The notes under the pieces: generated by a model | Databases searched by the model: none | Told to the model about the DNA's origin: nothing | Seen by the model: only the letters and a program-made list of their open reading frames with translations | Assembly (NCBI GenBank): GCA_040754075.1 | Contig: JBFMDH010000004.1 | Span: forward strand, 62,001-126,000 | DNA: 64,000 nt | DNA from: Acidobacteriota bacterium | Lineage (GTDB): Bacteria; Acidobacteriota; Blastocatellia; UBA7656 | Direction of reading: 5' to 3' | Translations under genes and position numbers: made by a program | Shown: piece after piece, positions 5,207-13,925 of the stretch | Layout of the letters: every line of letters starts with the position of its first letter | Numbering within the stretch: position 1 is the stretch's first letter

Positions 5207-5290
5207 AGGATTCTCGCTTTCCCAATGAGAAATCTTGGAGGGCTTGCGGGCATTATAACAGCAGTCGATAGTAAGCGGTAAAAAAAAGTA

Positions 5291-5431
5291 GGCAGTCGGC
5301 AGTCGGCAGTCGGCAGTAAAAATTCGTTTACAACGAATTGGACATCATGAATTTAAACTTGGAAAGTGTAAACGATTATCCTTAGATTCTCAGGCAGCAA
5401 AAAGACTGCCTGCCGCCTACTGCTTACTGCC
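5291..5431. repeat. Heptamer-repeat element with inverted arms, copy 1
   Basis: The left arm holds four tandem heptamers of the type GGCAGTC (5291-5318). The right arm holds four heptamers of the reverse-complement type ACTGCCT (5404-5431). About 85 bp of unrelated sequence separates them. It lies just upstream of the gene at 5458 and could fold into a long hairpin. The architecture matches the element at 7221-7370, although the heptamer sequence differs. Confidence 0.7.
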
Positions 5432-5457
5432 TGCTCTCTATGTTAGGATTTCATTGC

Positions 5458-7221
5458 ATGGACTTTCGCAAATTTTTAACTGGGAAAAATCTATTAATCT
5501 CGATTGTCTTAGTCGCCTTGGTTTTTTCAACCGCCGGGTATTTTCTGTTTCGCAAACCGCCGCGTGTGCCAATGGAACCCTATGTTCCTGCTTCGGCGCT
5601 TGCCTACCTTGAAATCAACAGTCTTACGGATTTAATGGACGGACTCACAGACACCAAAGCCTGGCAGGAGATCGCCCCTGTGCTTGGTCTGTCAAGTCAA
5701 CTCAAACAACTGGGTTCGGGTATCGATTTGATGAGCCGCACGGGAATTGGTCCCGATGAAATCGTCACCCTTGGACGCGCGCAATATGCCATCGTGGTGA
5801 CCGGCATCGAAGCTAAAGCGACATCGACGGAAGAAGGGGCGGCGCTCAATATCAAACCGCAGTTCGCGCTGATTGCTGAAACCCACGCCAGCCCCGAAAC
5901 CGCCGCAAAACTGGTCAGTGACCGCGCCGCAATACTGGCGAAAAGAATTTTCGGCGAAGCCACCAGAGAAGAAACCGCAGATTACCAGGGCACCAGTGTT
6001 TTAATTTTTCGCGGCGAACCGGAAGGCCGCCAACTGGTCGCTACTTCATCGGGAAGCGTCGTTATCCTTGCCAATCACGAAGCGGCTGCAAAAGTTTGTC
6101 TCGATGCGATAGCCCGTCGCACAGCTACGCTTGCCGAAGATGAATTGTTGAAACAACGTAGAAGCGAAGTCGACGCCGATGCCGGAATTTTCGCTTACGT
6201 GACCAATGCCGGAATCGAGAAATTGACCCAAGTCGGTCCGGCATTGTTTGCTACGCGATTCACCAATGACCCGGATAAATTGAGCATGGTGGCAAACCTT
6301 TTCGGAAATATGTCGAAACAGACTGCCGAAGCGTTTTTTTATAGCTTAACCTTTAATGATAAAGAAGGCGTGACGGAAAAATATTTCACTCTGTTGCGCC
6401 CGCAACTTGCCAGGGGGCTTGCGGAAACCATGCGCCCTGCAAACAACGGTAATGATTTCGCGGTTCTCGCGCTGATTCCGCAAAATGCTCAGGAATGCAC
6501 GGTTTTGAAAGTCGAGTCCGCCGGGGCGCTGCCTGAAAATTTACTTAAAGGATTATCGCCGGGACTCGATATTGTCGCGGGGCTTGCGCTCAGAGAATTT
6601 GTCATTGGCTTTCGTAAAGAACTCGGTTTAGAGCCGGGTGAAACCCTCAATAACTCGATTGGCAGCGAAGTCGCCATTGTCAAAACCCAGGAAGATGAAC
6701 CGGTGGCATTGGTGTTTCGCGTGAAAGACCGCAACGCGCTCTCTGCGGCAGTCAATAAATATCTCACTCAGGACAAGGCAACGATTACAAAAGAGAACTA
6801 CAACGGTGTAGAGATTCAAATTTCTTCCAAAGCCGACGGCAGCAGCGCAGCATTCGTCGGTGAGTATCTGATTTTAGCCACGAGAAATCAGATTGCCGGA
6901 ATGATTGACGCGCAAGCAAACGGGCGTTCAATTGAAAAAGATGAGCAGGTGAAATCGGCGTTTGCGAATGCGCCGCGCTTTGCTTCGGTTTTATCTTTTG
7001 AGGATGATTCGCTGAAGACCGCAAAAATGTTGCTGGCAATTTCCAAACTCACGCGGGTTACCGATGGTGCGCCTGAAATACTCGAACGCGGCGAGGTGCG
7101 AGCATCCCTGGAACGTTTACCGAAATTGCAAAGTTACACGGTCTTTCGCGATGCGGGCGTTTATGCTGAAACCCGTTCGGCAATCGGGGTGTTTAAACGT
7201 TTGGGCGAGTGGCTGGAGTAG
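5458..7221 (+). CDS. Membrane-anchored DUF3352-like exported protein (587 aa)
   Basis: Starting at ATG 5458, which has AGGA about 8 bp upstream, gives a short basic N-terminus and one hydrophobic segment (about residues 12-30) acting as an uncleaved anchor or signal. The rest is a large extracytoplasmic region of alternating strands and helices. The opening VPASALAYLEINSLTDLM resembles DUF3352-type proteins, whose function is unknown. The protein at 22036 has a similar layout and opening (RGAMVYLQARDLSLLM), so the two may be distant paralogues. Inverted heptamer elements lie on both sides. A GTG- or ATG-initiated form from 5440 is possible but less likely. Confidence 0.75.
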   Translation: MDFRKFLTGKNLLISIVLVALVFSTAGYFLFRKPPRVPMEPYVPASALAYLEINSLTDLMDGLTDTKAWQEIAPVLGLSSQLKQLGSGIDLMSRTGIGPDEIVTLGRAQYAIVVTGIEAKATSTEEGAALNIKPQFALIAETHASPETAAKLVSDRAAILAKRIFGEATREETADYQGTSVLIFRGEPEGRQLVATSSGSVVILANHEAAAKVCLDAIARRTATLAEDELLKQRRSEVDADAGIFAYVTNAGIEKLTQVGPALFATRFTNDPDKLSMVANLFGNMSKQTAEAFFYSLTFNDKEGVTEKYFTLLRPQLARGLAETMRPANNGNDFAVLALIPQNAQECTVLKVESAGALPENLLKGLSPGLDIVAGLALREFVIGFRKELGLEPGETLNNSIGSEVAIVKTQEDEPVALVFRVKDRNALSAAVNKYLTQDKATITKENYNGVEIQISSKADGSSAAFVGEYLILATRNQIAGMIDAQANGRSIEKDEQVKSAFANAPRFASVLSFEDDSLKTAKMLLAISKLTRVTDGAPEILERGEVRASLERLPKLQSYTVFRDAGVYAETRSAIGVFKRLGEWLE

Positions 7222-7370
7222 GATACAGGATTCAGGATTCAGGATATAGGAGTCAGGGTTTAAGCTGAATAGGAAACTCGAACTTTCCATAATCAACTAT
7301 TTGACTGGGCATTTACTTCGTTGCTCATCTTTTGCGTCAACCTGAATCCTGAATCCTGAATCCTGATTCA
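7221..7370. repeat. Heptamer-repeat element with inverted arms, copy 2
   Basis: The left arm runs from the last base of the preceding gene through six GGATTCA-type heptamers (to 7262). The right arm has TGAATCC-type heptamers (7343-7370), the reverse complement. About 80 bp lie between, matching the spacing of copy 1 at 5291-5431. Confidence 0.7.
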
Positions 7371-8629: not shown

Positions 8630-10639
8630 ATGACCAAGTTGATTCAAAGCCTCAAAGCCAACAAGCGGCTCGCCCTGATTTCGGTTAGCGTCATTGCTGT
8701 CCTGCTGATTTCACTGCTCACCTTTTTCATCATTCGATTTAATAATCGCATCAAGGCTGAACGCGACCACGCCGCCGAAGCCGTGCGCGTCGAAGTACAG
8801 GAAAGCCAACTGCGCGCCCCTGCGACCGATGGACTCACGGCGTTTTTGAATTCATCGGAAGTTCGCGCAACCGCTGCGTTCAACGGCACACGCTACTTTG
8901 CGACATCAGGCGGACTGCTGGCTGTGGATGAAAATGGCAACCTCAAACGTCGTTACACTACGATGGACGGGCTGACGGATAACGACTTGACGACGCTTGC
9001 CATCTTTCGCGGGCGACTATTTATCGGCACCGCGGCAAACGGCATGATGGCATTTGATGGCAATGGGTTTACGGGCTTTCGGTTCAACAAACCGAAAGCC
9101 ACGCGAGTCAGCACCTTGCTTGCAACCGACACCGAACTTTTAATCGGCACGCTCGATGGCGGACTCTTCGAGTATGACGGAGAAAAATTCACCCGTCGGC
9201 TGAATTGGGCTACAGGAGCCGATTTCGAGCGCATCACCGCTTTGCTGGCGAATCAATCGCGCATCTACATCGGCACTCAGGACAAAGGCTTGTACCTGTG
9301 GCGCGAGGCGCAATTTCAACGATTCAGCGAAGCCGAAGGGTTGCCTTCGCCGCGTGTGACGGCGATTGCTTTGATGCCAACGGGCGACGCTATCGCCATC
9401 GCTACCGATTTCGGCATCGTGACCTTAAATGATGCCAACGAAATCAAAGCGTTATCCACACAACCGAACATCACATCATTGGTTTCAAGCAAAGGAAAAT
9501 TATTCGCAGGCTTATTTACCGACGGCATCACGCAAATTGGTGATTCAACAAAAAGAGAAGGCGCAACGCAAATTATTGACACCGGACATCGGACACCAGA
9601 TACCAGACCTTTGCCATCCGACTCCCGACTCCCAACTCCAGACTCCCGACTCTTCGTCGATGACGGAAGATTGTGGATGCTCACCGCCGCAGGCGCTTTT
9701 GCGCGTGATGAATCCTCAAGCAGTCCCACGTTTGAACCTATCCCTGCAACGATTGCCAAAGACGCTATCGTATCTGCCGCGCACATCACCACGCTGGCGC
9801 TCGATAATCAAAATCGCTTGTGGATTGGATATTTTGACCGTGGCGCGGATGTGTTATCGCTGGAAACCAACACGCGCCTGACGCATATCGAAGATGACCG
9901 GATTCGTGAAGTCAATTTCATCGCTTTTGACAAGGCGAGTAATCGCGCGTTGATTGCCACTTCGCGTGGCTTGGTGGCGATGGGCGCGGACGGCAAACAA
10001 ACCCTCACAACTAAAGAGCAGGGCTTGATTGATAACGCGATTGCCCACCTTTCTTTTGTTGAAGATGACGCAAGCGCACGCGGCAATCGCCTGATACTGG
10101 CAACCGCCGGGGGACTGACGGAAATTTCGCCAGGTCGGGCGCGTTCGCTCACCGCTTTTCATGGATTATCGAGCAATCACCTCTACACCTCCGCGATTGT
10201 CGGTTCACGCGCTTTTGTCGGAAGCCTTGCGGGTCTTGTGGAACTTGAAGGGTTGCGGGTCACGCGGGTTTTCAAAAAATCGAATTCCAAACTATCGGAA
10301 GATTGGGTGACGGCGCTCGCTGAGGCAAATGGCACGTTGTATGTCGGCACGATTGGCGGCATAGATGCGTTGCTGCCGACCGGCGAATGGGTAAACTTCG
10401 CCGATGAATTGGGCAAAATCGAAGTCAATCAAAACGCCATGTATTTTGACGGCGAACGATTGTTCGTCGGCACTAGCGATAGCGGATTATTGGCGTATAA
10501 TGTGCGCGAACGTCGTTGGTCAAGTATTCGGGCAGGACTCACCTCAGCAAATGTCACCGCGATTACCAGCGATGACCGCTATGTTTACGTCGGCACCTTA
10601 AACGGAATGACGCGCATCGAAAAGCGCGTACTGAATTAG
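8630..10639 (+). CDS. Membrane-anchored two-component-regulator-propeller-like protein (669 aa)
   Basis: One N-terminal transmembrane helix (about residues 14-35) anchors a long extracytoplasmic beta-propeller. Repeated units of the form GLTDNDLTTLAIFRGRLFIGT and VTAITSDDRYVYVGT resemble the Reg_prop propeller blades of hybrid sensor kinases, but no kinase or other output domain follows. A likely role is ligand sensing or a binding scaffold (inference). ATG 8630 has GAGG about 11 bp upstream. Around residues 317-342 the propeller is interrupted by a Pro/Asp/Arg-rich stretch (TPDTRPLPSDSRLPTPDSRL) encoded by 11 consecutive heptamer repeats at 9579-9655, which looks like a recent in-frame insertion. 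Confidence 0.8.
   Translation: MTKLIQSLKANKRLALISVSVIAVLLISLLTFFIIRFNNRIKAERDHAAEAVRVEVQESQLRAPATDGLTAFLNSSEVRATAAFNGTRYFATSGGLLAVDENGNLKRRYTTMDGLTDNDLTTLAIFRGRLFIGTAANGMMAFDGNGFTGFRFNKPKATRVSTLLATDTELLIGTLDGGLFEYDGEKFTRRLNWATGADFERITALLANQSRIYIGTQDKGLYLWREAQFQRFSEAEGLPSPRVTAIALMPTGDAIAIATDFGIVTLNDANEIKALSTQPNITSLVSSKGKLFAGLFTDGITQIGDSTKREGATQIIDTGHRTPDTRPLPSDSRLPTPDSRLFVDDGRLWMLTAAGAFARDESSSSPTFEPIPATIAKDAIVSAAHITTLALDNQNRLWIGYFDRGADVLSLETNTRLTHIEDDRIREVNFIAFDKASNRALIATSRGLVAMGADGKQTLTTKEQGLIDNAIAHLSFVEDDASARGNRLILATAGGLTEISPGRARSLTAFHGLSSNHLYTSAIVGSRAFVGSLAGLVELEGLRVTRVFKKSNSKLSEDWVTALAEANGTLYVGTIGGIDALLPTGEWVNFADELGKIEVNQNAMYFDGERLFVGTSDSGLLAYNVRERRWSSIRAGLTSANVTAITSDDRYVYVGTLNGMTRIEKRVLN
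9579..9655 (+). repeat. Heptamer array inside a coding region
   Basis: Eleven back-to-back heptamers: ACACCGG, ACATCGG, ACACCAG, ATACCAG, then two diverged units, then ACTCCCG, ACTCCCA, ACTCCAG, ACTCCCG and ACTCTTC. The array preserves the reading frame of the propeller protein. Confidence 0.75.
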
Positions 10640-13243: not shown

Positions 13244-13430
13244 TTGCGCCGGAGACGCCAGGAAATTAGCCTGCGGTGAGCCACAGGTATTTTAGGCGGA
13301 AAATCGAATCATCGCGCCGCAGATGCGGAGGATATTAGCCTGTGGTGAAGCCACAGGTATTTTAAGCGAAGAATTGAATCATCGCGCCGGAGGCGCGAAG
13401 GATATTAGCCTGTGGTGAAGCCACAGGTAT
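13244..13430 (+). repeat. REP-like palindromic repeats, 5' cluster (three units)
   Basis: Three head-to-tail units about 70 bp apart each contain a hairpin of the form CCTGTGG-TGAAG-CCACAGG (13266-13290, 13335-13360, 13405-13430; the first has one mismatch). Between them lie GC-rich hairpins, for example CGCGCC-GGA-GGCGCG at 13383-13397. The first 79 bp (13244-13322) recur exactly at 13966-14044 on the far side of the transposase. They are probably the substrates of the adjacent transposase. Confidence 0.8.
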
Positions 13431-13478
13431 TTGGGTTGCAAAATTCCATTGCGCTCTGAAAGAGCGCAGGAGAAACCG

Positions 13479-13925
13479 ATGCCGTCAACGCATTTGAGTT
13501 TGCATTACCATTTAATTTTCAGCACCAAAGACCGCTATCCGTTTATCGCAAAAGAATGGCGCAATCGATTACATTCATTTTTAGGTGGAGAAGTGCGAAA
13601 GCTTAAAGGCGTTCCTGAAAGTATTGGCGGCACCAATGACCACGTTCATCTATTGATAGGACTTCGCGCCACGCACCGTTTATGCGATGTTTTGGAAGAC
13701 ATCAAATCAGGTTCTTCAAAATGGGTTCACGAAGAGTTAGGTTTAGATGAATTTGCCTGGCAGGTAGGATATGGCGCGTTCACCGTGAGCGCGTCGAAAA
13801 TCGAAGCAGTTAAAAAATATATTGAGAATCAGGAAGCGCATCATCACGTGAAGACTTTTCAGGAAGAGTATCGGAAATTTTTAGAAGAAAGCGGCGTTGA
13901 GTTTGATGAGAAATATTTGTGGTGA
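13479..13925 (+). CDS. REP-associated tyrosine transposase (IS200-like, RAYT)
   Basis: A Y1-family HUH single-strand nuclease of 148 residues. The divalent-metal HUH motif is HVHLL near residue 50, and the catalytic tyrosine lies in VKKYIENQEAHH near residue 120. LHYHLIFSTKDRYPFI at the N-terminus is the usual opening of IS200/IS605 TnpA relatives. The ATG at 13479 follows GGAGAAACCG. It is a single gene with no accessory tnpB and is flanked by REP-like palindromes instead of subterminal IS ends, which is the RAYT arrangement. It probably cuts and spreads the REP hairpins. The frame is intact. Confidence 0.92.
   Translation: MPSTHLSLHYHLIFSTKDRYPFIAKEWRNRLHSFLGGEVRKLKGVPESIGGTNDHVHLLIGLRATHRLCDVLEDIKSGSSKWVHEELGLDEFAWQVGYGAFTVSASKIEAVKKYIENQEAHHHVKTFQEEYRKFLEESGVEFDEKYLW

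Follow-up and report, generated by a model that had tools for sequence, protein, structure and literature searches.

The STRR heptamers of heterocystous cyanobacteria and the heptanucleotide repeats of the Nostoc tRNA-Leu intron form degenerate arrays that, in the intron, take part in stem pairing. The Rickettsia palindromic elements are mobile palindromes of approximately 100-150 bp that also occur inside protein genes, in frame and at positions where the protein tolerates them. Among long simple repeats, heptamers are the most frequent kind in many bacteria, and an interaction with DNA polymerase together with slippage has been proposed for them (summarised in PMC4679880). The GGGNATC / GGGGA(C/T)T heptamers of Xanthomonas and Nostoc are intergenic, depleted from coding sequence and preferentially found between co-oriented genes, and in Xanthomonas they also occur as inverted pairs (Rehm et al. 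2015, PMC4692102). The TAACTGA direct repeats of Beggiatoaceae are likewise intergenic and consist of a single invariant heptamer, related heptamers being rarely repeated; in this case the stop codons of the unit govern its placement with respect to coding sequence (MacGregor 2015, PMC4679880). In the Borg elements, tandem repeats give rise to amino-acid repeats, and the unit lengths in coding DNA are divisible by three (PMC9879509). Heptamer units are usually expected to be absent from genes, given that one unit gained or lost shifts the reading frame.

The DNA analysed here is a stretch of 64,000 nucleotides (the window) from an Acidobacteriota bacterium of the UBA7656 lineage (contig JBFMDH010000004.1, positions 62,001 to 126,000 of the forward strand); no paper on heptamer arrays in this bacterial group was found in the open-access literature. 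One of its genes encodes a propeller protein that carries such an array (Table 1). The protein begins with a hydrophobic segment, matches PF07494 Reg_prop with an E value of 1.5e-10 and 40.4 bits, exceeding the curated cut-off of 20.4, and shows sequence similarity to designed or natural propellers in the PDB. A match was found in 51 of the 58 genomes searched, and approximately 25 of these cover most of the length; among near relatives the gene order pgsA - propeller - VIT/VWA - TPR is conserved. The flanking propeller sequence stays in frame on both sides of the array and can be aligned with the orthologues, in agreement with the sequence-only reading, in which the array sits between two blades of an intact protein whose neighbouring blades continue. 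This placement in an inter-blade loop is based on the alignment and the Reg_prop motif, because the AlphaFold model of the protein as a single sequence was unusable (mean pLDDT of 42).

Period-7 DNA extends from 9578 to 9655 within the open frame. Read from 9579, it can be divided into eleven 7-mers (ACACCGG, ACATCGG, ACACCAG, ATACCAG, ACCTTTG, CCATCCG, ACTCCCG, ACTCCCA, ACTCCAG, ACTCCCG and ACTCTTC), each of which agrees with their joint consensus at 3-6 of 7 positions. The repeat is thus degenerate, and not the exact array that had been described; Tandem Repeats Finder resolves it into two blocks, one of 4.4 copies with a 79% match and the other of 5 copies with an 85% match. The Leu-Pro encoded by the middle stretch, from the units ACCTTTG and CCATCCG, aligns opposite a GLP motif of the orthologues. 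The best lag-7 segment of the gene has a score of 18.0; across 2000 codon shuffles the mean was 5.5 and no score exceeded 15, and these shuffles together with the control lags exclude chance or codon bias as the source of the array. No inverted partner was found within 300 bp, the best inverted match having a score of 7 on both sides. An antisense ORF of 158 residues that overlaps the array was dismissed as a shadow frame.

Table 1. Features discussed in the text. Positions are those of the window, except for QueA.
Feature	Position	Strand	Description	Evidence
Array AGTCGGC	5287..5317	+	Intergenic; inverted partner at ~5404-5434	
Array AGGATTC	7220..7251	+	Left arm of an inverted pair; overlaps the stop of the DUF3352 gene	
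Array CCTGAAT	7341..7369	+	Intergenic; right arm of the inverted pair with the AGGATTC array	
Host gene	8630..10639	+	669-aa protein; N-terminal membrane anchor and Reg_prop-type beta-propeller	Open frame, PF07494, class-wide orthologues, synteny
Block 1	9578..9607	+	~4.3 degenerate heptamers, consensus GGACACC-like; encodes DTGHRTPDTR	Tandem Repeats Finder (9578-9608), lag-7 score 13
Middle stretch	9608..9617	+	In phase, poor match; encodes Leu-Pro	Unit comparison, protein alignment
Block 2	9618..9652	+	Five heptamers, consensus GACTCCC; encodes SDSRLPTPDSRL	Tandem Repeats Finder (9618-9652), lag-7 score 18.0, protein alignment
QueA	L086 14551-15675 (G000 C3)		Queuosine synthesis; carries a heptamer array	Orthologues L126, L128

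The inter-blade region varies in length and sequence in all the relatives aligned. Between fixed anchors the loop measures 210 nt in the window, and 189, 192, 192, 180, 189 and 189 nt in six family members (L002-L006 and L020, respectively), so that the net gain is 18-30 nt. This does not fit the insertion of 77 bp initially proposed, since the remainder of that length falls within a loop that varies in every relative and in which nucleotides could not be aligned reliably. With respect to the nearest relative, G001, the gain is exactly 21 nt, i.e., three heptamers or seven codons. The frame is therefore preserved for the loop as a whole, but not for a clean insert of 77 bp, which is not a multiple of 3. 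Likewise, the length steps of 21 bp anticipated among relatives agree with the comparison with G001, G002 and G005 (189 nt), but not with the others (180 and 192 nt).

The anticipated absence of the array from relatives was borne out for most of the aligned orthologues, where no period 7 was detected at this site, the exceptions being G001 and L014, the latter with a weak, GC-rich stretch; no counterpart of block 2 was found in any aligned orthologue. G001 is the only other family member with a marked period 7 at the loop. The top lag-7 stretch of its entire gene, GACGCTGGACACAGGACTACGGACAACGGAC, lies at the homologous place, comprises approximately four degenerate heptamers and encodes DAGHRTTDNG, opposite block 1 of the window; its score was reached by 18 of 2000 codon shuffles, and by 4 of 300 in a second run. 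A wholly new insertion is hence not supported. Block 1 probably predates the split between the window and G001 and is common to both genera, and the GACTCCC block was probably added in the lineage of the window. Because the units are degenerate, a shared old array is hard to separate from independent convergence, which may also have produced the stretch in G001.

A census of 1.264 Mb, one sixth of the 7.58 Mb genome (G000), revealed that the propeller array belongs to a genome-wide class, as the sequence-only reading had proposed. Lag 7 gave 118 segments at threshold, versus 0-14 for each of the lags 4-6, 8-11, 13, 16 and 17 (none for 5, 10, 11 and 13, one for 17, and 4-14 for 6, 8, 9 and 16), and heptamers are therefore in excess over other unit lengths; the signals at lags 14 and 21 echo the period of 7. 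The units are diverse and include AGGCAAA, GATTCAG, GACTACC, GACTCCC and GCAATCC, among others. At a lower threshold, 134 merged arrays were obtained, 83 of them intergenic, 29 at gene edges and 22 inside predicted genes, in DNA that is 87% coding; this split is approximate, since the genes were predicted with an in-house method based on hexamers, and some of the 22 intragenic arrays adjoin doubtful gene starts. An inverted partner is present within 300 bp of 85 of the 134 arrays, compared with 1 of 134 random places. There are 58 inverted-pair elements, with spacers of 13-237 nt, and 44 of the 51 that are non-genic lie between co-oriented genes; gaps of this kind account for 288 of the 448 gaps of at least 100 nt. 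In sampled stretches of relatives, G003, G004 and G013 were rich in heptamer arrays, and G001, G002 and G007 were poor. The persistence of heptamer pairs at the same intergenic sites gave Fisher p values of 0.33-1.0, with at most 10 conserved gaps per genome pair. The gap upstream of the DUF3352 gene (5207-5439) and its counterparts in G003 and G004 all contain inverted heptamer arrays, the units of which are unrelated (AGTCGGC, AGATGTC and AATTGAA).

In several respects this class resembles the systems described above. Degenerate heptanucleotide arrays are shared with the STRR and the Nostoc tRNA-Leu intron repeats, although the latter are in an RNA gene context, and the presence of repeat DNA in frame at tolerant positions of protein genes is shared with the Rickettsia palindromic elements, although the propeller array contains no mobile palindrome of that kind. 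The closest likeness in distribution is to the heptamers of Xanthomonas and Nostoc: units of 7 nt, genome-wide occurrence, an intergenic excess with a deficit in coding DNA, a preference for co-oriented genes and, as in Xanthomonas, inverted pairs. However, those have a G-rich consensus and prefer four units, whereas here many unrelated and degenerate units occur, not all of them G-rich, and in-frame arrays are found within conserved proteins. Block 2 of the window array is GGGAGTC-like on the minus strand with three GGG tracts, instead of GGGNATC with at least four, and the array has no nearby inverted partner, although the class as a whole does. Intergenic direct repeats of heptamers are also shared with Beggiatoaceae, although the single unit there contrasts with the diversity of units found here. 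As in the Borg elements, tandem repeats of DNA make new in-frame protein segments; nevertheless, the unit here has 7 nt, and divisibility by three applies only to the overall change in length. In sum, the window array is a heptamer simple-sequence repeat of an already known type, tolerated in a permissive loop; what is unusual is that the units are so varied and that one loop of QueA has been used repeatedly.

How a gene may tolerate such arrays follows from the arithmetic of the frame. Because 7 and 3 have no common factor, a period-7 array encodes one cyclic heptapeptide in all three frames (DSRLPTP for GACTCCC, GHRTPDT for GGACACC); therefore a unit that lacks stop codons can be read through in whichever frame it falls, and the one constraint on length is that the overall change be divisible by 3. 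For this reason heptamer arrays can be tolerated in genes, and the propeller array is an example of a mostly non-coding type of DNA repeat turning into protein.

Four further array-bearing genes (O-antigen ligase, PMT_2 transferase, QueA and a ComEC-like protein, assigned with Pfam) were compared with their family orthologues, and the entry of the repeat class into coding sequence, also claimed by the sequence-only reading, is cleanest in QueA. In 24 genomes outside the family (G007 and 23 others) the loop that follows GTTTTRALE has 30-42 nt and lacks a marked period 7, and the solved structure 1yy3 has nine residues there. Inside the family the loop has 48-162 nt, and every length is a multiple of 3. 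Four members carry heptamer arrays, with units that differ, in loops of 87-162 nt: the arrays of G000 and G001 are of the AGGAGTC type, that of G004 is weak, and G003 has an ACCTGTC array, which is preceded by an in-frame block of complementary (inverted) type. No heptamer array was detected within the QueA insert of the family members G002, G005 and G006. Loop length differs between genera in QueA as it does in the propeller. The QueA loop of this family offers a clean natural series in which the passage of repeat DNA into protein, and the turnover of such sites, could be followed. An octamer array of approximately four copies, TCACCTCT, adjoins the heptamer array in the QueA loop (L086 15424-15458, i.e., G000 C3:275424-275458).

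The explanation that we consider likely is that the propeller array belongs to a class of degenerate heptamer arrays spread over the genome, which would arise when units of 7 bases are duplicated locally, most probably through replication slippage or short-range template switching. Such arrays would build up mainly in intergenic DNA and persist in coding DNA only where the protein tolerates them. In the propeller, the array would have grown within an already variable loop, where a second block, of GACTCCC units, was added to an older one that is present in degenerate form also in G001, which lengthened the loop by about seven codons net. Two features would have rendered this harmless, the frame-independent heptapeptide and selection for length changes in multiples of 3, and the product would be a short linker rich in Pro, Asp, Ser and Arg. 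The period-7 enrichment, the mostly non-coding location of the class, the intact and syntenic gene, the hypervariable loop, the stretch in G001 and the parallels in QueA all support this explanation. On the other side, many arrays are inverted pairs, for which simple slippage is not a sufficient explanation; their frequency suggests that fold-back copying may take part. A bolder version, which we put forward only tentatively and regard as doubtful, is that an active process in this lineage generates 7-bp arrays with a wide range of unrelated units, frequently as inverted pairs, and has repeatedly placed such arrays in the same tolerant loops of conserved enzymes, QueA for example. The site would remain while its unit is exchanged in the course of time, and new protein sequence that does not depend on the frame would be supplied continually.

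The inverted pairs also bear on the possibility that the array was brought in by a mobile element (MITE- or REP-like), copies of which would spread heptamer arrays to further sites, genes among them, much as the Rickettsia palindromic elements do. Arrays built from units of the same family occur at many sites, the census contains 58 inverted-pair elements, and an array at G000 C1:129940-129997 has a similar order of unit types on the reverse strand. However, among the elements listed the spacers differ and the similarities inspected lie in the heptamer arms, the units vary widely in sequence, the window array lacks a nearby inverted partner, and the site in G001 is occupied by a related degenerate array rather than being empty; therefore, we find this improbable. 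Still less credible is that the linker was selected at the protein level as an adaptive Pro/Asp/Arg-rich loop, for example for binding a partner. The intact host gene and the recurrence of the class in envelope proteins, as well as in QueA, are compatible with it, but a period of 7 nt, instead of 21 nt with synonymous changes, indicates a repeat of DNA and not of protein, the QueA loop peptides vary by species, and the array is missing from most propeller orthologues. The least probable is that the array works as a nucleic-acid structure, such as a minus-strand G-quadruplex of GGGAGTC repeats that affects gene expression, given that, although GGGNATC-type heptamers are known to fold in vitro (PMC4692102) and block 2 has three GGG and two GG tracts on its minus strand, four GGG tracts are missing, the G-rich strand is the template strand and many arrays of the class are A/T-rich (AGGCAAA, AATGGAA) and incapable of forming a quadruplex.

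Aside from the local duplication of heptamers favoured here, other repeats were noticed in the same genome. Octamer arrays, some of them as inverted pairs, form a second and rarer class, and a 5.8-kb open frame (L077, G000 C3:82717-88488) contains three heptamer arrays, two of which are an inverted pair. In the window, the region 13246-13925 looks like a REP/RAYT-type neighbourhood: it contains a 70-bp repeat with the palindromic core CCTGTGGTGAAGCCACAGG, the 2.7 copies of which end where a gene for an IS200-like Y1 transposase (PF01797) begins, and G001 and G003 have close relatives of this transposase at the same place.
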